Of a stretch of 64,000 nucleotides of DNA, positions 47,617 to 59,332 are shown piece by piece. The notes below the pieces were generated by a model. The model worked only from the letters and a program-made list of their open reading frames with translations. It ran no database searches and was not told the origin of the DNA. This stretch comes from Candidatus Eremiobacterota bacterium (GTDB lineage: Bacteria; Vulcanimicrobiota; Vulcanimicrobiia; Vulcanimicrobiales; Vulcanimicrobiaceae), in assembly GCA_019235885.1 (NCBI GenBank), contig JAFAKB010000076.1, forward strand, positions 1-64,000, given 5' to 3'. A program made the position numbers and the translations under genes. Numbering within the stretch: the stretch's first letter is position 1; every line of letters starts with the position of its first letter.

Positions 47617-48339
47617 TCAGGCGGGGCTCAAAATCCCGTCGCGCAGGGTTGGCACGACGGTCAGCGTGTCGAGGGCGGCGCTGGTGGTGATGTCGGCGGC
47701 GAAGCCTTTGTGGGCGAGGGACTGGGCGTGGTCGGCGCTCGCGATCGCGTCGGGAAGGCGTGAGGCGACGGAGCGGTAGAGGAGCGCGGCGGCGCGGGCG
47801 CCGTCGCGCAGCTCGACGTCGCCGATCTGCGCGAGCAACGCGTCGACGAGGGCGCCCGCGCCGAGCGCGTCCTCGAGCGCGAAGCCGTTCGCTTCGCCGG
47901 CGCAGACGATTGCGACGTCGCCGTCCTCGTTCGCGAGCGCGTCGGCGACCGCGAGGCGGTTCACCAGCGCGGCGGTGCGCACCGACGCCGCCGTCGAGAC
48001 GGCGCGCAGCGCGCGGGTGCCGTTCGTGGTCGTCATGACCAGCATCTTCCCGGCGACGCGCTCCGGCGTGAACGACACCGGCGAATTGTCGAGGTCGAAC
48101 CCTTCGATGCGCACCGCGTCGCGCTCGCCGCAGAAGAGGACGCGCTCGCGGCCCAAGCGGTTGCCGAGCGCGATCGCGTCTTCGGGCTCCGCGACGGCGA
48201 TCACGCCTTCGGCGCCGTTCGCCAGCGCGACGGCGATCGTCGTCGTCGCGCGCAGGACGTCGACGACGGCGACATGCGCACCGCGCACCAGGTCGCTCGA
48301 CGCCGGCGGGCTCAGCAAAACATCGACACAGCGGCTCAC
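47617..48339 (-). CDS. comB: ComB-type 2-phosphosulfolactate phosphatase
   Basis: 240 aa. Family motif VAVVDVLRATTTIAVALANGAEGVI near residues 23-47, then LVMTTTNGTRALR and VAIVCAGEANGFALEDALGAG. Members hydrolyse phosphosulfolactate, but in bacteria without coenzyme M the substrate is uncertain. Convergent with paoC, 12 bp apart. Confidence 0.88.
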   Translation of the reverse strand: MSRCVDVLLSPPASSDLVRGAHVAVVDVLRATTTIAVALANGAEGVIAVAEPEDAIALGNRLGRERVLFCGERDAVRIEGFDLDNSPVSFTPERVAGKMLVMTTTNGTRALRAVSTAASVRTAALVNRLAVADALANEDGDVAIVCAGEANGFALEDALGAGALVDALLAQIGDVELRDGARAAALLYRSVASRLPDAIASADHAQSLAHKGFAADITTSAALDTLTVVPTLRDGILSPA

Positions 48340-48881: not shown

Positions 48882-50296
48882 TCAGCCGATCCGTTCCGCC
48901 ACGTGATCCAACGAGGAGTAGCGCGCGAGCACTTGGTCCGCGCGTCCGTCACGTCCGAGCCTGAACGTCATCGTGCCGTCGCCCAGCGGAAAGTAACATT
49001 GGGTCGCCGACATCGGGATGAGGCCGGCCGTGAACTGCTCGGGAATCACCGCCATCAGACCGAGCCGCTCGTCGGGCGAGATCGTCATCACTCGCCCGTT
49101 CGAAAAGCGATAGTGTCCCGACAACGCGGCCTTCTCCGCTACGGTCAGCGTGACGACGTCGCCGCTGACCGGATCGTCCCACGTGCCGCCCCGCGCGATC
49201 CGGGCCAACGCGTTCGTGACCAGCATCGGGCGCGAGCGCATCCAGTTCGTCAGGACGACGATCGTGAGGCGCTCGTCGGGCCAGATGCTGCTCACGGTGA
49301 GGTAGCCCGGCATTTCGCCGGTATGCCGATAACGCCGGCGCCCTTCGTCGTCATTGCCGATCATCCACCCTGCGCCGTAGCCGAACGCCCCACCGTCGAA
49401 GATCTCGCGAACGAGCGCGCCGGTGACGACGTTTCCGTCCGGGTGCAGCATGAGATCGTTCCACCGCGCGAGATCGGTCGCGGTGCTGTACACGCCGGCG
49501 TCGCCTTCGGGCGGCGTGAGCGGCAAAACGGGGACACGTTCGGCGAAGTCGGCGAGCCGAAAGCCCGGCAGAAAACGCGGCCAAGATATCTCGGCAGCGT
49601 TGTACCCCGCGGCGAGCGCCGCCGGCGCGTCGAACCCGACCGTGCCCGTCGCGTGCATCCCGGCCGGCGCGAAAATCGTCTCGCGTAAGAACGCGCCGAA
49701 CGCCTTTCCGGCAGCGCGCTCGACGATCGTTCCGAGCAGCAAATACCCCGTGTTGGAGTAGTGGAACTTCGAGCCCGTGAGAAGTCGAGCGGCAGCGGAC
49801 GCATATTCGCGATCGCACGTTGCGCGGAGTTCGGCTGCAGCATGAACGCCAGGTACGCCGGCGATTCGAGATCGAGCTTCGCTTCGTAGTCGGGGATGCC
49901 GGAGGTGTGATGGACGAGATGCGCGATCGTGACGCCGCGCCAGTGCTCGGGGCAGTCGTCGAGATGGTCGCAGATCGGATCGTTCAGCCGTAGGGCGCCG
50001 CGGTCGCGCAGCTTCAGGACCGCGAACGCCGTGAACATCTTCGAGAGCGAGGCGATCTCGAATTGAGTCTGTGGCGTCGCGCCGCGCTCGGGCGCGACGG
50101 TGGCGGAGCCGTACGCTGCTCCGAAAACGAGCGCGCCGTCGCGCCGCACCTCGGCGGCGCCGCTGAAGCGCCCCAGGGCGGCGAGCCGGCGGAGATAACG
50201 GTCGCACCGCGCGGCCGGCCCCTCGGCCGCCAATCCGATGCGCGGGACCGCCGCAGCGGCAGCAGCGAGGGACGAGACGAACGCGGAACGGTTCAT
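48882..50296 (-). pseudogene. Serine hydrolase (beta-lactamase class C/PBP4-like), frameshifted
   Basis: The first part (from ATG 50296) has a signal peptide and the SxxK nucleophile in IASLSKMF (Ser83, Lys86), ending coherently at MRPLPLDF. From about 49780 the family sequence continues in another frame with the YxN motif in SKFHYSNTGYLLLG and HTG in RHTGEMPGYL, to the stop at 48882. Restoring one base gives 471 aa, normal for the family. No intact single frame exists, so it is a pseudogene or an assembly error. Confidence 0.8.
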
Positions 50297-50381
50297 ACAC
50301 CGAATGAATTAGGTTTCACCGGCGCCCGCCCCTGCGGCGCCGCGCAGAGCCCGCTCGCCGCGTTGTCGAAAGCCGTTCCGG

Positions 50382-51449
50382 GTGAGCACGAACGTCCTCG
50401 ACCTCGTCGTCGAAGCGCTCCCGCATCTGCGCGGCGGGCTCGGCGAAGAGTCGGCGAGCTTCACCGCGCGGCTGCTCTACCGCAACTTGGGACTCGACGC
50501 GTGCGCGGTCGTCGACACCGAGCGCGTGCTGGCGTACGTCGGGCGCGGCGAGGACCACCACCGCGTCGGCGGCCCGGCGCTGACCGGGCTCACGCACCGA
50601 GCGATCGCGACCGGGCACGCCTACACCGCCCGCACGCGCGAAGAGATCGACTGTCCCGTCCCGGCCTGTCCGCTCACCTCGGTGACGATCGCGCCGTTCA
50701 TCGTCCGCGGCGCGGCGGTCGGCGCGCTGAAGTTATATCGCGCCGGGACGCCGATCGCCGAAGACGACGAGAAGGTCGCGCTCGGGCTCGCGCGCGTCTT
50801 CTCGGTCTCGCTCGAAGCGGCGGAGCTCGACGCGCGCTCGGCGCTCGTCACGCAGGCCGAGCTCGACGCGCTGCGCGCGCGCGTCTCGCCGCATTTCCTC
50901 TTCAACACGCTCACCACGATCGCCGCGCTGACGCGCACCGATCCCGACCGCGCGCACGACCTGGTCGTCGACTTCGCCGAGTACTTTCGCGACTCGCTCG
51001 CGCAGCACGCGGAGTTCGTCTCGCTCGACGACGAGATGGAGCACGTCGAGCAGTACCTGCGCTTCGAGCGCGCGCGCTTCGGCGATCGGCTGCAGGTGGC
51101 GTTCGAGGTGGACCCGCGAGCGCGGCTGGCGCTCGTTCCGGTGATGTCGGTGCAGCCGCTGGTCGAGAACGCGATCATGCACGGGCTCGCGCCGAAGGGC
51201 GGCGGCGGAACGGTCCGCGTCCTCGCGCGCCCCGACGCCGACGGCATCGAGATCGCGGTCAGCGACGACGGCATCGGGTTCGTGCCGGGAGCGCCGGCCA
51301 AGCACAACGGGATCGGGATGGACAACGTCGACCAGCGGCTGACGAAACTGTTCGGCCCGGCCAGCGCGCTGCGCATCACCAGCGCGCCGGGCGCCGGCAC
51401 GACGGTGGCGTTCCGCGTGCCGGCGAAGATGCCGGTCGCCGCGCGATGA
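50382..51449 (+). CDS. LytS-type sensor histidine kinase, soluble with GAF domain
   Basis: 355 aa, GTG start. GAF-like domain about 25-140 (CAVVDTERVLAYVGRG...VTIAPFIVRGAAVGALKLYR). His_kinase domain with phospho-acceptor His in RARVSPHFLFNTLTTIAAL, then VMSVQPLVENAIMHGLAP (N box) and SDDGIGF (G1). No membrane segment, so it senses a cytoplasmic signal. It pairs with the LytTR regulator 10 nt downstream. Confidence 0.9.
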   Translation: MSTNVLDLVVEALPHLRGGLGEESASFTARLLYRNLGLDACAVVDTERVLAYVGRGEDHHRVGGPALTGLTHRAIATGHAYTARTREEIDCPVPACPLTSVTIAPFIVRGAAVGALKLYRAGTPIAEDDEKVALGLARVFSVSLEAAELDARSALVTQAELDALRARVSPHFLFNTLTTIAALTRTDPDRAHDLVVDFAEYFRDSLAQHAEFVSLDDEMEHVEQYLRFERARFGDRLQVAFEVDPRARLALVPVMSVQPLVENAIMHGLAPKGGGGTVRVLARPDADGIEIAVSDDGIGFVPGAPAKHNGIGMDNVDQRLTKLFGPASALRITSAPGAGTTVAFRVPAKMPVAAR

Positions 51450-51459
51450 GCGGGCTCGC

Positions 51460-52188
51460 GTGCGCGCGCTAGTCGTCGACGACGAGCCGCTGGTCCGCAG
51501 CGAGCTCGTCTACGCGCTGCGCAAGGCGGGCGGTGAGATCGAGATCGACGAGGCGCCCGACGCGGTGGAGGCGCTGCGCGTGATCGCCGGCGGCGCGTAC
51601 GACGTCGTCTTTCTCGACATCAGCCTGCCCGGCCTGAGCGGGCTCGAAGCGACGAAGGTGATCAATGCCCTCCCGTCAGCGCCGCAAGTGGTGTTCGTCA
51701 CCGCGCACGACACCCATGCGGTCGACGCGTTCGAGCTGGCGGCGTTCGACTACGTCGTCAAGCCGGTCTCGCAAGAGCGGCTCGCGCGCACCCTGGAGCG
51801 GCTGCGCGCGCAGCGGGAAACCACCGCTGTGCCGGCTGCCACGCCGAACGGCAACCTCGGCCGCGTCGCGCTCGAGGACGGTGAGCGCACGCGGCTAGTC
51901 AAGCTGGCTGAGATTCGCTACGTGCAGGCGAACGGCCACATCGTCACCGCGCGCACGTTCGACGGCGATTTGCGTTGGAAAGGCTCGCTCGCCGAAGCGG
52001 CGGCGCGGCTGGAGCCGGCCGGTTTCCTGCGCGTGCACCGCGCGTATCTGGTGAACCCGGAGCGCGTCGTCGAGGTCGAGCCGTTCTTCGGCGGCTCGTA
52101 TCTGCTGCGCGTCGACGACAAAGCGCGCAGCGAGGTGCCGATCTCGCGCAACTACTTTCCGACCGTGCGCAAAGCGCTCGGCTTGTGA
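51460..52188 (+). CDS. LytTR-family response regulator
   Basis: 242 aa. Receiver domain: ALVVDDEPLVRSEL, phospho-Asp in VVFLDISLPGLSG, VTAHDTHAVDAFELAAFDYVVKP. C-terminal LytTR DNA-binding domain: IRYVQANGHIVTARTFDG...LEPAGFLRVHRAYLVNPERV. The TGA overlaps the GTG of the GH47 gene (GTGA), an unusual coupling of regulator and enzyme. Confidence 0.93.
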   Translation: MRALVVDDEPLVRSELVYALRKAGGEIEIDEAPDAVEALRVIAGGAYDVVFLDISLPGLSGLEATKVINALPSAPQVVFVTAHDTHAVDAFELAAFDYVVKPVSQERLARTLERLRAQRETTAVPAATPNGNLGRVALEDGERTRLVKLAEIRYVQANGHIVTARTFDGDLRWKGSLAEAAARLEPAGFLRVHRAYLVNPERVVEVEPFFGGSYLLRVDDKARSEVPISRNYFPTVRKALGL

Positions 52189-53588
52189 AGCTGCGCCGCG
52201 GCGCGTTTCTCGCCGGGGCCGGCGGCGCCGTCGCGGCGCCTCTCGCAGCAGCGGCGCACCCGATCGGAGGCTATCGCCGCACGCCGGCCCCGCTAGAGAT
52301 CGCGCAGGCGGTGCGCGCCGAGTTCGTGCACGCCTGGAACGGCTACAAGCTGATCGCCTGGGGGCGTGACGAGGTGAAGCCGGTCGCGGGGACGACGAAC
52401 GACTTCTTCGTGGACGGCCGGACGTTCGGGCTGTCCATCGTCGAGGCGCTCGACACGCTGTACGTGATGGGGTTCGACGACGAGCTGGCGCGCTGCGTGC
52501 GCTGGATCGGCGATCACCTGGAGCTCGACGTCGACGCCGACGTGCAGATGTTCGAATGGGTCATCCGCATCGTCGGCGGGTTGCTCGCCGGCTACGCAGC
52601 GACCGGCGAGCGAATGCTGCTCGAGCGCGCGCGCGACGCGGCGGACCGCGTCCTGCCGTGCTTCGTGAAATCGCCGACCGGCGCGCCGTACCGGTACGCG
52701 AACCTGCGCACCGGCGCGGTGCGCGAGCCGGCGATGAACCTCGCCGAGATCGGCAGCAACATCCTGGAATTCGGCGAGCTCACGCGGCTCACCGGCGACC
52801 CGAAGTACATGCGGGCATCAAAGCGCGCCTACGAAGCGGTAATCGCGAAGCGCTCGGGGCTGAACCTGCTCGCGACGTACTTCGACGTGGAGAAAGGCGC
52901 GTTCAGCAAGAACGTCGACGTCGCGCCGAACCCGCCGGTCGACTCGTTCTACGAGTACCTGTGGGGCGGGTGGGCGATGTTCGGCGACGCGCAGTGCCGC
53001 GACTGGTACCGCATGCTGACCGACGCGATCCTCAAGCACCAAGCGGACCGCACCACCGTCCGAGGCCGGCTGTGGTTCCGCCAAGTCGACTACCAGACGG
53101 GTGCGCCGGCCGGGACGCGGCAGGTCGAGCTGGCCGCGTTCTACGCGGAGCTGCTCGCGAAGGGCGGCGACCGCGAAGCCGGCTCGGACTACTACGACTC
53201 GTGGACCTCGGTCTCGGACCGCTACGAGATCATCCCGGAAGTCTTCGACTACGCGAGCGGCGCGGTGAGCGCGCCGAGCAACGAGCTGCGCCCGGAGTAC
53301 GCGAACGCCGCCTTCGACCTGTGGTTCCTGACCCGCGACGAGAAGTATCGCAACACCGCGTACCGCCACTTTCTCGCGATACGCGAGCACTGCCGCGTCG
53401 CGAACGGCTACACGATCGTCGACGACGTCCGCCCGCGCCCGATGAAGCTGGGCGATCTCTTCCCCGCCTACTCGTTCGCGGAGAACTTCAAATACCTGTA
53501 CCTGATGTTCGCCGAACCGCGGCGCTTCGACGCCGCGAACTACTACTTGAGCACCGAAGGAAAAGTGCTGCGCGGCTTGAGACGCTAA
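52185..53588 (+). CDS. Glycoside hydrolase family 47 (alpha-1,2-mannosidase type), exported
   Basis: 467 aa. N-terminal LRRGAFLAGAGGAVAAPLAAAA looks like a Tat or Sec signal. GH47 blocks in order: WNGYKLIAWGRDEVKPV, DGRTFGLSIVEALDTLYVMGF, FEWVIRIVGGLLAGYA, NLAEIGSNILEFGELTRLTGDPKY, DSFYEYLWGGW, NELRPEYANAAFDLWFLT and FAENFKYLYLMF. GH47 is mainly eukaryotic, with few bacterial members. It may trim mannose from external glycans under LytS/LytTR control (inference). Confidence 0.88.
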   Translation: MKLRRGAFLAGAGGAVAAPLAAAAHPIGGYRRTPAPLEIAQAVRAEFVHAWNGYKLIAWGRDEVKPVAGTTNDFFVDGRTFGLSIVEALDTLYVMGFDDELARCVRWIGDHLELDVDADVQMFEWVIRIVGGLLAGYAATGERMLLERARDAADRVLPCFVKSPTGAPYRYANLRTGAVREPAMNLAEIGSNILEFGELTRLTGDPKYMRASKRAYEAVIAKRSGLNLLATYFDVEKGAFSKNVDVAPNPPVDSFYEYLWGGWAMFGDAQCRDWYRMLTDAILKHQADRTTVRGRLWFRQVDYQTGAPAGTRQVELAAFYAELLAKGGDREAGSDYYDSWTSVSDRYEIIPEVFDYASGAVSAPSNELRPEYANAAFDLWFLTRDEKYRNTAYRHFLAIREHCRVANGYTIVDDVRPRPMKLGDLFPAYSFAENFKYLYLMFAEPRRFDAANYYLSTEGKVLRGLRR

Positions 53589-53594
53589 TCCGCA

Positions 53595-54569
53595 TTATGA
53601 GCATTGCGCCGCCCGCGGCTCAACCGGCACGATAGACTCCAGCGGTTCTCCGGCGATGAAGCGCTGCAGGTTGCGGGTGACGAGCGCGAGGATGCGGCGC
53701 GGCGCGACGTCGCCGCCGTAGCCGGCTACGTGCGGGGTGATCAGCACGTTCGGCAACGTCCAGAGCGGGTCGTCCGCGGGGAGCGGCTCGGGCTCGGTCA
53801 CGTCGAGGGCGGCGCCGCCGATGCGTCGTTCGCTCAGCGCGGTGCGCAGCGCGTCGTGGTCGACGACGCCGCCGCGCGCGACGTTGATGAGGATCGCGTG
53901 CGGCTGCATCGCGGCGAGCGCGCCCGCGCCGACGAGGTGCCGCGTCTGCGCGCCGAGCGGGACGGCGAGCACGACCGCATCGCTGCGTGCGAGGACCTCG
54001 TGCAACTCGGTGCTCGGCGCGGCTTCGTCGCAGAGCGGATCCGCGCGCCCGCTGCGTGTCACCGCGACGATGTGCGCGCCGCAGCCGCGCAGCCGCTGGG
54101 CGACGGCGCGGCCGATGTTGCCGAAACCGATCACCGCGACCCTCGCGTCGTTCAGCGTGCCGATCCGCACGGCGTTCGACTGATCCCAGATGTTGCGCTC
54201 TTGGTTGCGGACCGCTTCAGGGATGCGCCGCAGCAGCGCGAGGAGCATCGCGAGCGCGTGCTCGGCGACGGTCGGTGCGTACGCGTCGCCGGCCGACGTG
54301 ACGGTCACGCCGGGCGGGACGCCGTGCAGCTCGACCGGATCGTAGCCCATCGTCGGAAGCTGCACCCAGCGCAGGCGCGGCGCGTTCCGCTCGAGCGTCG
54401 CGACCAACGCGGCGTCGTAGAACGCGGGCCAGGCCCACAGCGCGTCGGCGTCGGCGAGCTCGCGGTGCATCGCCTCGGCGTCGGTGACGGCGACGCTCTC
54501 GACGCCGTGCGCGGCGGCGAGGGCTTCGAACTGGGGCGCCAGGACGTGGGTTCGTATCACGACGCGCAT
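53595..54569 (-). CDS. D-isomer-specific 2-hydroxyacid dehydrogenase
   Basis: 324 aa from the ATG at 54569. NAD-binding GFGNIGRAVAQRLRGCGAHIVAV (about 145-167), ILINVARGGVVDHDALRTAL with the conserved Arg, TEPEPLPADDPLWTLPNVLITPHVAG with Glu and catalytic His. The N-terminal catalytic half is typical. Substrate unknown; phosphoglycerate dehydrogenase or glyoxylate/hydroxypyruvate reductase-like enzymes share this pattern. Confidence 0.9.
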   Translation of the reverse strand: MRVVIRTHVLAPQFEALAAAHGVESVAVTDAEAMHRELADADALWAWPAFYDAALVATLERNAPRLRWVQLPTMGYDPVELHGVPPGVTVTSAGDAYAPTVAEHALAMLLALLRRIPEAVRNQERNIWDQSNAVRIGTLNDARVAVIGFGNIGRAVAQRLRGCGAHIVAVTRSGRADPLCDEAAPSTELHEVLARSDAVVLAVPLGAQTRHLVGAGALAAMQPHAILINVARGGVVDHDALRTALSERRIGGAALDVTEPEPLPADDPLWTLPNVLITPHVAGYGGDVAPRRILALVTRNLQRFIAGEPLESIVPVEPRAAQCS

Positions 54570-54678
54570 CAACCGACCGTTCGCCGTGCGGCGGCTGCTG
54601 CATTTCGGGCGCCGTTTTCGGCCTTTCGCGCTCGGCGGCGAGACGCGGGCAGGCGGGCGCGGTACCGTCGGGGTTGTC

Positions 54679-55641
54679 ATGGCACGCTCACAGACGATGA
54701 CGAACGACCTTGCCGGCGTCGCGCAGCTGCTGGTCTCCGGCGGGCGCGGGATCATGGTGCTCGACGAGCCGCCGCAGAGCTGCAACGCGCGCTTCGCGCG
54801 GCTCGGCATCGCGCCGACCGCGGAGCAGCGGCGCGCATACCGCGAGCTGCTGATCGACGCGCCGGGCATCGAGCGCTACGTCTCGGGCGCGGTCCTCGAC
54901 GACGAGACGATCCGCCGCGGCACCGCCGACGGACGCCGCTTCGTCGACGTGCTGCGCGCGCGCGGGATCGTGCCGGGGATTCGCCTCGAAGCGAGCAACG
55001 CCAACCTCGCCGAATACGCCGCGCTCGGCGCGGGTATCGCCGCGATGCGCGGCGACGCGCCGACGCTCGCGCGCTTCGCCGCGCGCTGCCAGCAGAGCGG
55101 GATCGTCCCGGTCATCGAGCCCGACGTTCCGAGCGACGGCGAAGAGACGCTCGAGGAATGCGCGCAGGTTACCTCACGCGCGCTGCGCCGGCTGTTCGCG
55201 GAGCTGGCCGAGGCAGAGGTCGCGTTCGAGGCGCTGATCCTGACCACGAACATGATCGCGCCGGGGACGGCGTCGGGACAACATGTTTCGACCGCCGACG
55301 TCGTCTCCGCGACGCTTCGAGTGCTCGGCGCGACGGTTCCCGTCGCGGTCGCCGGGGTTGCGTTCGTCGCGGGCGCGCAGCACGATCACCTCGCCGCCGA
55401 GCGGCTGTGCGCGCTCAACAAGACGATGCCGCGCCGCCGCCCTTGGCCGCTGACGTTCACGTACGACCGCGCCCTGCAGCAAGCCGTGCTGGTCGCGTGG
55501 CGCGGCCGCGCCGAGCACACCGCGGAAGCGCAGCGCGTGCTGCTCCACCGCGCGCACTGCAACGGCCTTGCCGCCTGCGGCGCCTACACCTCGAAGATCG
55601 AGGACCAGTTCGAGACGTTCGTCCCGCCGCTCGCCGCGTAG
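54679..55641 (+). CDS. Class I fructose-bisphosphate aldolase homologue lacking the Schiff-base lysine
   Basis: 320 aa. Family blocks are clear: LLVSGGRGIMVLDEPPQSCNARF, ARFAARCQQSGIVPVIEPDVPSDG, PWPLTFTYDRALQQAVLVAW, NGLAACGAYTSK. In muscle aldolase the Schiff-base Lys229 lies in LLKPNM; here the aligned segment is ILTTNM, with Thr189 in its place. GIKVDKG (Lys107) is GIRLEAS, and the segment that carries Lys146 is shortened. It is therefore unlikely to work as a standard aldolase. Alternative start at ATG 54697. Confidence 0.85.
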   Translation: MARSQTMTNDLAGVAQLLVSGGRGIMVLDEPPQSCNARFARLGIAPTAEQRRAYRELLIDAPGIERYVSGAVLDDETIRRGTADGRRFVDVLRARGIVPGIRLEASNANLAEYAALGAGIAAMRGDAPTLARFAARCQQSGIVPVIEPDVPSDGEETLEECAQVTSRALRRLFAELAEAEVAFEALILTTNMIAPGTASGQHVSTADVVSATLRVLGATVPVAVAGVAFVAGAQHDHLAAERLCALNKTMPRRRPWPLTFTYDRALQQAVLVAWRGRAEHTAEAQRVLLHRAHCNGLAACGAYTSKIEDQFETFVPPLAA

Positions 55642-55742: not shown

Positions 55743-57233
55743 TCAGCCGGTAGCGTAGCCGGCGATCGTTGAAATCGCCTGCATTCCCGGCAAGTACACG
55801 TACGCGCTGCCGCGCGTGCGAACGAAGTTGGTGAAGCCCGGCACCGGCGAAGCGCTGAGCGTGAAGACATTGGTCTTCATCGTCGGCGGCGGCGGCGGCA
55901 TGACCGTTGTGAACGTCCACGGCCCCGTCGTCAGGTTGTGCCCGATCACCGGATCGGCGGGATCGCGGCTCGCGGGGTACGGCAGACCGCTCGACGATCC
56001 GCCGTTGACCCACGTCTCCATGAGAAACTCGAACGAGTCGCGCAAGCTTGCGCCGATGAAGAAACCCATCAGGCCGCGTTCGCCGGTGTTGCGGTCGTTC
56101 GGATCGTAGGGAAGCTGGTACGGCATCGCGCGGCGCATGATGCGGTGGCGCGAGGGCAGGTCTTCGACAGTCGTGTTGCGCGGGTTGTTGCGCCGAATGT
56201 GCGAGCTGTACGGGCAGTCCGAGCCGCCCTTGTCGGTGTAGAGAAAGTCGTTGATCTCATCGCTTGGAAGATCGGGCGGAAGCGTCTGCCGGCCCTTCAC
56301 CGGGTCGATCGCGACCGGCGTTCCGTTCGCCGGCCAGCGCCCGACCAGCAACGCCTTCATCGCGTCACCGGCGATTGCCGGGGACGTTCCGTAGAGTGAG
56401 GCGATCCTGTCGCGCTGGCCCTCGACGAACGCTTCGAACTCCTCGACCTTCTGCTCGAGCATGCGGAACGCCGCGAAGCTGCCATGTAGCCCGATCCCCG
56501 GCGGTTTGTTTCCGCCGGGGAGGTTGACGTTTTGGAAGTACGTCGTCGTCGCCGTGCCGAGAATGAACGCGCCGTTGTCGACCGGCTGCTGGTTGCCGTC
56601 GGGGCGCTTGTAGTACGGGTCGATCGAGAGGATCGGCTGCGCGATCCCGTCGCGGTACCCGAAGTAGATCATATCGTGAAGCAAGTCTTGCGACGTGAGT
56701 TCCTGCTGGATCTCGAACCCCGCCGCGAGCAACGCGCGCAGCTCGACGCTCGCCGCCTCGAGCGTCGCCAGGTCCTTCGCCCACAGCGCCAGCATGACGT
56801 CGAAGTTGCGGTCGTCGACGATCCAGTTGCTCGGCGCGCTGTCGGCGACGTCGCCGATCGTCGGCGCACTCGCCGCGGAGCCGTTCATGAACGGCGTGTG
56901 CGAGGGCGAACCGAACCACGCCGGCGAGCTCAGCGTCGCCGCGGGGATCCCGAAGCTGGCCAACCCGTTGAACGAGAAGCCGATGTTCAGACAGGTCGCC
57001 GGCGTGCTCGGGCCCCAATCGGCAGACGAGCGAATTTGGAAATCGGGAACCGAGCCGTCGACGAGGCTGCGCACGAGCGTTCCCGCGGCGGTTCGATCGC
57101 GCACGACCAGCACGAAGTAGCGCGCGAAGGTCGGTTCGCCGAGCCGGTAGCCGCGCATGACGATTCCCTGAACGTCCGGCAAGACGTCCGAGAGAAACTG
57201 CGCCGCCACCGCACCCCGAACGGCGCGGCTCAT
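55743..57233 (-). CDS. DyP-type heme peroxidase family protein
   Basis: 496 aa. YFGYRDGIAQP holds the catalytic Asp of the G-x-x-D-G motif; CPYSSHIRRNNPR carries the proximal His in the form seen in long (class C/D-like) DyP proteins; LPSRHRIMRRAMPY and ERGLMGFFIGASLRDSFEFLMETW also match. No signal peptide is evident. It oxidises dyes or phenolics with peroxide in known members. The start overlaps the preceding gene's stop (ATGA), so the two are made together. Confidence 0.85.
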   Translation of the reverse strand: MSRAVRGAVAAQFLSDVLPDVQGIVMRGYRLGEPTFARYFVLVVRDRTAAGTLVRSLVDGSVPDFQIRSSADWGPSTPATCLNIGFSFNGLASFGIPAATLSSPAWFGSPSHTPFMNGSAASAPTIGDVADSAPSNWIVDDRNFDVMLALWAKDLATLEAASVELRALLAAGFEIQQELTSQDLLHDMIYFGYRDGIAQPILSIDPYYKRPDGNQQPVDNGAFILGTATTTYFQNVNLPGGNKPPGIGLHGSFAAFRMLEQKVEEFEAFVEGQRDRIASLYGTSPAIAGDAMKALLVGRWPANGTPVAIDPVKGRQTLPPDLPSDEINDFLYTDKGGSDCPYSSHIRRNNPRNTTVEDLPSRHRIMRRAMPYQLPYDPNDRNTGERGLMGFFIGASLRDSFEFLMETWVNGGSSSGLPYPASRDPADPVIGHNLTTGPWTFTTVMPPPPPTMKTNVFTLSASPVPGFTNFVRTRGSAYVYLPGMQAISTIAGYATG

Positions 57234-57727: not shown

Positions 57728-57820
57728 GCATAACCCCTGATGCGGCTGACGAGGACCAAGACGATCGCTCGGACGAGCACCGTTAGGGGAGCGGGCGAAT
57801 TCTCCTACGAACGGGGGCCC

Positions 57821-59332
57821 ATGTCGTTTTTCGCCGACCTGTTCGCCACGAGCTCGGTCGAGAAGTTGCGGGAAATGAGCCGGAGCAAGAAGCTCCGGCG
57901 CGCGCTCACCGCGAAGGACCTGGTCGCGATCGGGCTCGGGACGATGATCGGGGGCGGAATTTTCACGACCATCGGGACTGGTGTCAAAGGCGCCGGCCCG
58001 GCCGTCATCGTCTCGTACCTGTTCGCGGGGCTCACCTCGTTTTTCGCGGCGCTCTGCTACGCCGAGCTCGGTGCGATGGTGCCGGTCGCCGGCAGCGCCT
58101 ATACGTACGCATACGCGACGCTCGGGAAGCTGTTCGCCTGGATCATCGGCTTCGCGCTGATCTTCGAGTACGGGATCAGTGCGGCGCCGGTCGCGCAGCA
58201 GTTCTCGGCCGCGCTGCAGGACGTGCTCAAGACGGTCGGGATCGCGCTGCCGGCGTGGGGGCAGACCTCGAACCTGGTGATTCATGGCGCGTGGTGGCTG
58301 CCCGGCTCGTACGACCTCGCGCACTCGCAGTTCGACGTGCTCGGCGCGGTGTTCGTGCTCGGGCTCTCGATCCTGCTCTCGATCGGCATCCGCGAGTCGG
58401 CGACGACGAACAACATCTTCGTCGTGCTGAAGATCTCCGCGCTCATCGTGTTCATCATCGCCGGCGCCTTCTTGTTCCACGCGGCGAATTTGCACGACTT
58501 CAACCCGAAGGGCTGGGGCGCGCTGGTGCCGTTCGGCGGCGCGGTCGAGAACGCGCAGACCGGAATCATCCCGATCGCCGCCTACGTGTTCTTCAGCTAC
58601 ATCGGCTTCGACACGGCGACGACGACGGCGGAAGAGACGAAGAACCCCGCGCGCGACGTGCCGCTGGGCGTGATCGGCGCGCTCGCGATCGGGACGCTGA
58701 TCTACTGCGCGACGGCGATCGTGCTGCTCGGCGCGCTGCCGTGGGCGCAAGTTCCCGAGAAGAACCCACTGGTCACCGCGCTCGCGCCGCTGCACTTTCC
58801 GGTGCTGAACTGGGTGATCACGATCGGCGTGCTGGCGGGGACGACCAGCGTCGCGCTCGCCTCGCTGCTGGGACAGGCCCGCATCTTCTACGTGATGGGG
58901 CGCGACAAGATGCTGCCGCCGGCCGTCGCGGAGATCCACCCGCGCTTCAAGACGCCGGTCCGCTCGACCATGTTCACCGGGGTCGCGGTCGCGATCCTCG
59001 CGCTCATTGTCCCGCTGAACCAGCTGCTCAATCTGGTGAACATTGGGACGCTGATCGCGTTCACCGTCGTGTGCGCCGGGGTGCTGTACCTGCGCCGCCG
59101 CAAGCCCGACATCCCGCGCAGCTTCCGCGTGCCGTTCGTCCCGCTGTTCCCGATTCTCGGGATTCTGATGTCGTTGTTCCTGGCGGTCTTCGGCCTCTCG
59201 CGCGACACCTGGATCTGGTTCGCCACCGCGCTGGTCGTCGGCTTGGTCTTTTTCTTCAGCTACGGATTTCGGACGTCGAAGCCGGAGCAGATCGAGTTCG
59301 TCGAAGAGCCCGAAGCGCTGGAGCTCGCATAG
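57821..59332 (+). CDS. APC-family amino acid permease
   Basis: 503 aa from the ATG at 57821. About 12-13 membrane helices. Signature LVAIGLGTMIGGGIFTTIGTGVKGAGPAVIVSYLFAGLTSFFAALCYAELGAMVPVAGSAYTYAY; later IIPIAAYVFFSYIGFDTATTTAEETKNPARDVPLGVIGAL (CAT-type). It probably imports cationic or other amino acids. It is followed by TMEM175, Nudix and MmcQ genes in one direction. Confidence 0.92.
   Translation: MSFFADLFATSSVEKLREMSRSKKLRRALTAKDLVAIGLGTMIGGGIFTTIGTGVKGAGPAVIVSYLFAGLTSFFAALCYAELGAMVPVAGSAYTYAYATLGKLFAWIIGFALIFEYGISAAPVAQQFSAALQDVLKTVGIALPAWGQTSNLVIHGAWWLPGSYDLAHSQFDVLGAVFVLGLSILLSIGIRESATTNNIFVVLKISALIVFIIAGAFLFHAANLHDFNPKGWGALVPFGGAVENAQTGIIPIAAYVFFSYIGFDTATTTAEETKNPARDVPLGVIGALAIGTLIYCATAIVLLGALPWAQVPEKNPLVTALAPLHFPVLNWVITIGVLAGTTSVALASLLGQARIFYVMGRDKMLPPAVAEIHPRFKTPVRSTMFTGVAVAILALIVPLNQLLNLVNIGTLIAFTVVCAGVLYLRRRKPDIPRSFRVPFVPLFPILGILMSLFLAVFGLSRDTWIWFATALVVGLVFFFSYGFRTSKPEQIEFVEEPEALELA

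Follow-up and report, generated by a model that had tools for sequence, protein, structure and literature searches.

The stretch analyzed here, a window of 64,000 nucleotides, belongs to contig 76 in the 4.5-Mb genome of a soil-type Candidatus Eremiobacterota bacterium. It contains a three-gene run encoding a LytS-type sensor histidine kinase, a LytTR response regulator (together LytSR) and a GH47 glycoside hydrolase, whose coordinates, strand and order had been given correctly in an original prediction made from the sequence (Table 1). The gap between lytS and lytTR is 10 bases, and the lytTR stop codon TGA (52186-52188) shares bases with the GTG start codon of the GH47 gene (52185-52187), as had been predicted. 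The resulting GTGA junction is identical in all three genomes with this arrangement (G000, the genome of the window, G028 and G135), and the three genes probably form one transcript. The translational coupling proposed earlier holds as to the overlap and, probably, co-transcription, but a purpose shared by the pair and the enzyme found no support; gene overlap alone is no proof of one. With moderate confidence, we read LytSR as a regulator of carbon metabolism (Calvin cycle or C2-C3 acids) behind which GH47 was inserted, and not as a mannan sensor by origin.

Table 1. Features of the window around the lytS-lytTR-GH47 run.
Feature	Position	Strand	Remarks
lytS, soluble LytS-type sensor histidine kinase	50382..51449	+	GAF-like domain, His_kinase and HATPase; His171 in SPHFLFN motif
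lytTR response regulator	51460..52188	+	receiver and LytTR DNA-binding domain
GH47 alpha-1,2-mannosidase (predicted), likely export signal	52185..53588	+	catalytic E124, D253, E371
GTGA start/stop overlap, lytTR/GH47	52185..52188	+	
2-phosphosulfolactate-phosphatase family gene	47617..48339	-	~2 kb upstream of lytS, two genes between
D-2-hydroxyacid dehydrogenase	53595..54572	-	follows LytSR in most loci of the genus
class-I fructose-bisphosphate aldolase	54697..55641	+	start as called
amino-acid-permease (APC) transporter	57821..59332	+	near LytSR in 8/10 assessable genus genomes

The pair has the composition of a LytS/LytTR two-component system: the kinase matched PF06580 (His_kinase; 1.1e-24) and HATPase_c (2.5e-10) in Pfam, and its partner matched Response_reg (1.2e-24) and LytTR (1.7e-20), with the kinase, receiver and LytTR domains all exceeding their cut-offs. 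The sensor had been described as having a GAF domain and no membrane segment. Hydropathy bore out the latter, with no membrane segment in LytS (the best 19-residue window, 1.58, lies inside the GAF-like region), and a Pfam scan found no 5TM-5TMR_LYT membrane input domain in LytS, using a library that detects this domain in an Azospirillum relative (L179). The GAF domain was upheld only in part: the PF01590 match (8.1e-4, 20.4 bits) falls below the Pfam cut-off of 22.4 bits, but a 17-row LytS profile matched the SpoVT chain 2w1r of the PDB over profile positions 25-145 (E 0.0078), and we take the SpoVT domain of 2w1r to be GAF-like. Among the 40 matches listed from that search, only 2w1r matched the N-terminal part, the rest being relatives of the kinase and ATPase domains. 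The 2w1r match suggests a GAF fold for the N-terminal part of LytS. An AlphaFold model of LytS made from three sequences had a mean pLDDT (predicted local distance difference test) of 43.5, and was discarded as too poor for judging this fold. All 17 aligned kinases, two of BtsS type among them, share H171, H59, H60, C91 and C96. Residues 59, 60, 91 and 96 combine His-His with Cys-x4-Cys and may constitute a metal or redox site within the GAF-like domain.

Like the window pair, BtsS/BtsR and YpdA/YpdB consist of a kinase with a GAF-DHp-CA core and a CheY-LytTR regulator, as passages of PMC5552118 and PMC10653868 describe them. The four His and Cys residues are common to the window LytS and two kinases encoded beside btsR-annotated genes. 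Unlike those systems, the window LytS is without the 5TM-5TMR_LYT sensor, identity is 35-37%, and the LytTR protein scored 159.6 bits against the BtsR equivalog model, its best NCBIfam model, where the cut-off is 246. A passage of PMC5552118 raises the idea that a further intracellular stimulus might act through the GAF domain of BtsS.

The evidence for a link with carbon metabolism comes from gene context across a phylum sample of genomes, with 11 genomes counted in the genus of the window. Outside the genus, LytS orthologs at 55-65% identity occur in 4 of 138 genomes (G089, G097, G058 and G113). In three of these four, LytSR lies directly among genes for ribulose-bisphosphate carboxylase/oxygenase (RuBisCO; rbcL, rbcS), phosphoribulokinase (PRK), fructose bisphosphatase (FBPase) or aldolase, next to a CbbR-like LysR gene. 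G089 has rbcL-rbcS on one strand, then LysR-LytS-LytTR and, after ~0.9 kb, PRK-FBPase-aldolase; in G097 and G058, LysR-LytS-LytTR-aldolase is divergent from rbcL-rbcS-cbbX, the CbbX of G097 reaching its cut-off. The fourth, G113, has the pair behind hydrogenase maturation genes (hypC-hypD...hypF-LytS-LytTR), with a glpX-type FBPase ~6 kb on. Form I RuBisCO, a class that here comprises the reference and sequences >55% identical to it, was found in 4/4 non-genus genomes with the LytS ortholog versus 12/137 non-genus genomes overall (Fisher 3.5e-5 by genome), or, counted by genus, in 3/3 versus 11/69 (Fisher 0.0031). Another 20 genomes had some RuBisCO match; 11 of them were compared with the reference, giving 24-29% identity, and 9 were set aside on weak matches alone. 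Among 346 matching plasmid records, the three relatives inspected (Azospirillum, Burkholderia, Nonomuraea) had no RuBisCO gene in their annotation or labelling.

Similar settings were seen within the genus. In G008, a single contig, LysR-LytS-LytTR is followed by two genes and then by a PRK that reaches its NCBIfam cut-off, and rbcL-rbcS-cbbX-phosphatase lies ~17.5 kb from LytSR, in a block whose remainder is syntenic with the window. For the LysR proteins near LytSR, the CbbR model led the NCBIfam matches in G097, G058 and G008 and came second in G089, 0.5 bit behind the top model, its scores (155.9-166.4 bits) lying below the cut-off of 450. LytSR of G102 (L119:3579-16421) is flanked by isocitrate lyase, malate synthase, GlcD/GlcE/GlcF-like genes and a GntR regulator, with the Glc and malate synthase models scoring under their cut-offs. 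As called, the G008 phosphatase gene (L165:11373-12095), a relative of the phosphosulfolactate-phosphatase gene of the window, shares four bases with cbbX, a place that phosphoglycolate phosphatase occupies in other cbb operons. It is a candidate stand-in for that enzyme; a literature search found nothing linking phosphosulfolactate phosphatase with phosphoglycolate.

From these domains, residues and gene contexts we infer the following course. The ancestral setting of LytSR would be central carbon metabolism, comprising Calvin-cycle genes accompanied by a CbbR-like LysR as well as the handling of glycolate/glyoxylate or C2-C3 acids. The GAF-like domain, through its invariant His-His-Cys-Cys set, may read an intracellular metabolite, a metal or the redox state; LytS would then phosphorylate LytTR, and LytTR would tune promoters of carbon-metabolism genes. 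In the lineage of G000, G028 and G135, GH47 would have landed behind lytTR, riding the lytSR transcript via the GTGA overlap; it would thereby gain the expression of the operon and is probably expressed with lytTR.

Several points weigh against this reading. The association test was run after the pattern had been seen and is carried by only three genera; a close LytS is missing from 8 of the 12 RuBisCO genomes outside the genus. A match below 1e-30 to the nickel-iron (NiFe) hydrogenase large subunit was seen in just one of the four LytS genomes there, G089, whose rbcL beside LytSR is split over two frames. Within the genus, just two of the 11 genomes (G008 and G137) yielded form I RuBisCO; in the other nine, LytTR was found without it. 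The genome of the window itself is without detectable form I RuBisCO, PRK and NiFe hydrogenase, its only RuBisCO-like match being at 4.0e-13 and 26% identity; the present role of LytSR there thus cannot be Calvin-cycle control. The aldolase is 40-58% identical to the copies of relatives and accompanies LytSR in only 4 of 10 genomes of the genus. As to regulatory sites, an alignment of 10 rows (the window and nine genus genomes) was clearly conserved only inside the coding start, leaving no conserved DNA upstream of lytS. The consensus WMMGTTNRK, which we take to be that of LytTR, matched the window 12 times against 20.95 expected, and no match lies near lytS, where the original prediction had proposed to look for a motif upstream of 50382; no target emerges from this search. 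Finally, 10 of 14 inner branches of the LytS tree are open. The GH47 of G135 stands outside the GH47 tree, so that a single insertion of GH47 is an argument from parsimony.

An explanation that we regard as unlikely is a transporter switch like BtsSR or YpdAB, in which LytSR would sense a C3 acid and control a nearby carrier, the APC permease, with GH47 as a passenger. The standing of BtsR as the best model for LytTR fits this explanation, tempered by the score below the equivalog cut-off, and a Nonomuraea LytS/LytTR pair is followed by an SSF symporter, whereas the membrane input domain present in the Azospirillum relative is missing here. The permease itself is frequent near LytSR in the genus (Table 1) and absent from the stretches around LytSR in G134, G102 and the four non-genus genomes. 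The LytTR consensus has one match (57779-57787) 33 bases ahead of the called start of the permease, although its matches across the window are fewer than chance would give.

We next consider the enzyme. The GH47 protein matches PF01532 at 1.7e-95 (321.1 bits versus a cut-off of 22.9), and its closest solved relatives are the CkGH47 entries, PDB 4ayo matching residues 39-467 at 1.3e-121. Its three catalytic acids are invariant in 31 of 31 GH47 sequences, comprising 20 from Eremiobacterota (the window included), 10 from Streptomyces and one from Lewinellaceae, excluding fragments and duplicate genome records; the loss of these acids, raised earlier as the outcome that would undo the prediction, did not occur. 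T457, presumably the C-terminal Thr with a calcium role in GH47, is kept in 30 of 31 with one gap, and we take E121 and E365 of CkGH47 to be counterparts among the catalytic acids. Three CkGH47 residues that passages of PMC10685318 place in the active site, D249, R363 and L310, correspond in the 4ayo alignment to D253, R369 and the Leu within VELAAFY. The same passages report that CkGH47 hydrolyses alpha-1,2-mannobiose (PMC10685318). Because the catalytic acids are invariant and D253 and R369 match the CkGH47 active site, the protein is very probably an active exo-alpha-1,2-mannosidase, and its predicted export is likely, given the Arg pair, the hydrophobic stretch and the AAAA found at its N-terminus. 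Bacterial GH47 is already established through CkGH47 (Caulobacter K31) and is not new; compared with that enzyme, the genomic setting differs. In the GH47 tree (midpoint root), the Eremiobacterota enzymes split from those of Streptomyces (93/84), G000 and G028 are sisters (100/99), G067 comes next (94/94) and the placement of G096 is open; the GH47 of G135, in fragments, was excluded. A literature search on Eremiobacterota and mannosidase found no paper with either term in its title or abstract.

The distribution of GH47 differs from that of the pair. GH47 matches occur in 27 of 148 genomes of the phylum sample (23 below 1e-50, the other four weak and partial), and no LytS/LytTR was found beside GH47 among the loci examined outside the genus, many of which span only 1.5 kb each side. 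All 11 genus genomes have the LytTR ortholog and 10 have LytS (uncounted in G122, where the contig ends inside lytTR), versus five with GH47. Among the 10 with contigs that extend beyond lytTR, which excludes G078, three have GH47 adjoining it. The next gene after lytTR is GH47 in G000, G028 and G135; in G134, G122 and G096 it is the hydroxyacid dehydrogenase, in G067, G008 and G137 a 217-218-residue protein, and in G102 another gene. The 217-218-residue proteins (L117:10084-10737, L116:8045-8698, L118:1681-2337) are encoded on the strand opposite to lytTR; members share 49-54% identity with the copy in G008, for which Pfam gave no match. Away from LytSR, the GH47 genes of G067 and G096 stand in runs with SBP_bac_5 solute-binding-protein genes, and their coupled partners as called are SBP_bac_5 in G067 and a 237-residue protein plus SBP_bac_5 in G096. 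In these loci (L129:7438-10411, L130:5085-8756), the lipoprotein-like SBP_bac_5 genes are 60% identical to each other. In G028, YhhN follows GH47. In a Streptomyces GH47 locus (L046), a receiver-domain match to LytTR residues 1-131 lies ~2.7 kb off and stops before the LytTR domain.

These counts, together with four non-genus LytSR orthologs without GH47 beside them, do not support the self-contained sense-and-degrade unit of the original prediction. A dedicated mannan unit, in which LytS would sense a mannose-derived metabolite and LytTR would switch on GH47 through the shared operon, is in our view very unlikely: the GTGA overlap is kept wherever the arrangement occurs and GH47 is intact, but in 7 of 10 assessable genomes of the genus LytSR has no GH47 next to it, GH47 stands without LytSR in 20 of the 23 genomes with matches below 1e-50 (beside it in three), and the window's own genome, which holds one GH47, has no match to GH92, the one further mannosidase family searched for. 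We consider it improbable that the pair is a dedicated sugar sensor, because the regulator often occurs without GH47 and elsewhere lies among carbon-dioxide-fixation genes.

The surroundings of the run include two further genes on the minus strand. At 48882-50300, a beta-lactamase-family serine hydrolase is apparently split over two frames by a frameshift or an assembly error; its Pfam match begins at profile position 126, the upstream half being in the other frame. At 55743-57233, beside the hydroxyacid dehydrogenase/aldolase cluster, a 496-residue protein had no Pfam match at 0.001. A promoter/terminator scan of the window's DNA gave nothing usable: its yield was a single promoter-like site and a single terminator-like site, each on the minus strand.

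Two further known systems invite comparison. CbbRRS of Rhodopseudomonas palustris is presumably encoded beside cbb genes. According to passages of PMC3018481, it is likewise a two-component input to Calvin-cycle genes that also have the LysR regulator CbbR; it comprises a hybrid kinase and two response regulators, whereas the window has LytS and a DNA-binding LytTR. RcoM, a carbon monoxide (CO)-responsive PAS-LytTR protein, likewise has a LytTR DNA-binding domain, in the gas metabolism of an autotroph, but passages of PMC4257681 present it as a single-component regulator of CO oxidation genes, not of cbb genes. Among the papers listed in our literature search, no title, abstract opening or passage described a LytS/LytTR pair in cbb loci. 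Eremiobacterota have been linked to atmospheric chemosynthesis and phototrophy (passages of PMC9758169; PMC9561532), and passages of PMC9758169 credit Vulcanimicrobium alpinus WC8-2 with type IE RuBisCO, Prk and a hydrogenase of group 1h.

The gene families are ordinary; a soluble LytS/LytTR pair linked to carbon fixation is a more interesting lead than a dedicated mannan unit. In its fullest and more tentative form, which we consider possible, the proposal is that a soluble BtsS-related pair serves in Eremiobacterota as a Calvin-cycle- and glycolate-linked regulator beside CbbR, may sense an intracellular C2-C3 acid or metal/redox state via the invariant His-His-Cys-Cys site of its GAF domain, outlived the loss of RuBisCO in this lineage and would now drive a mannosidase. 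If the pair does regulate the Calvin cycle, the cultured Vulcanimicrobium alpinus, as described in passages of PMC9758169, would make that regulation testable.

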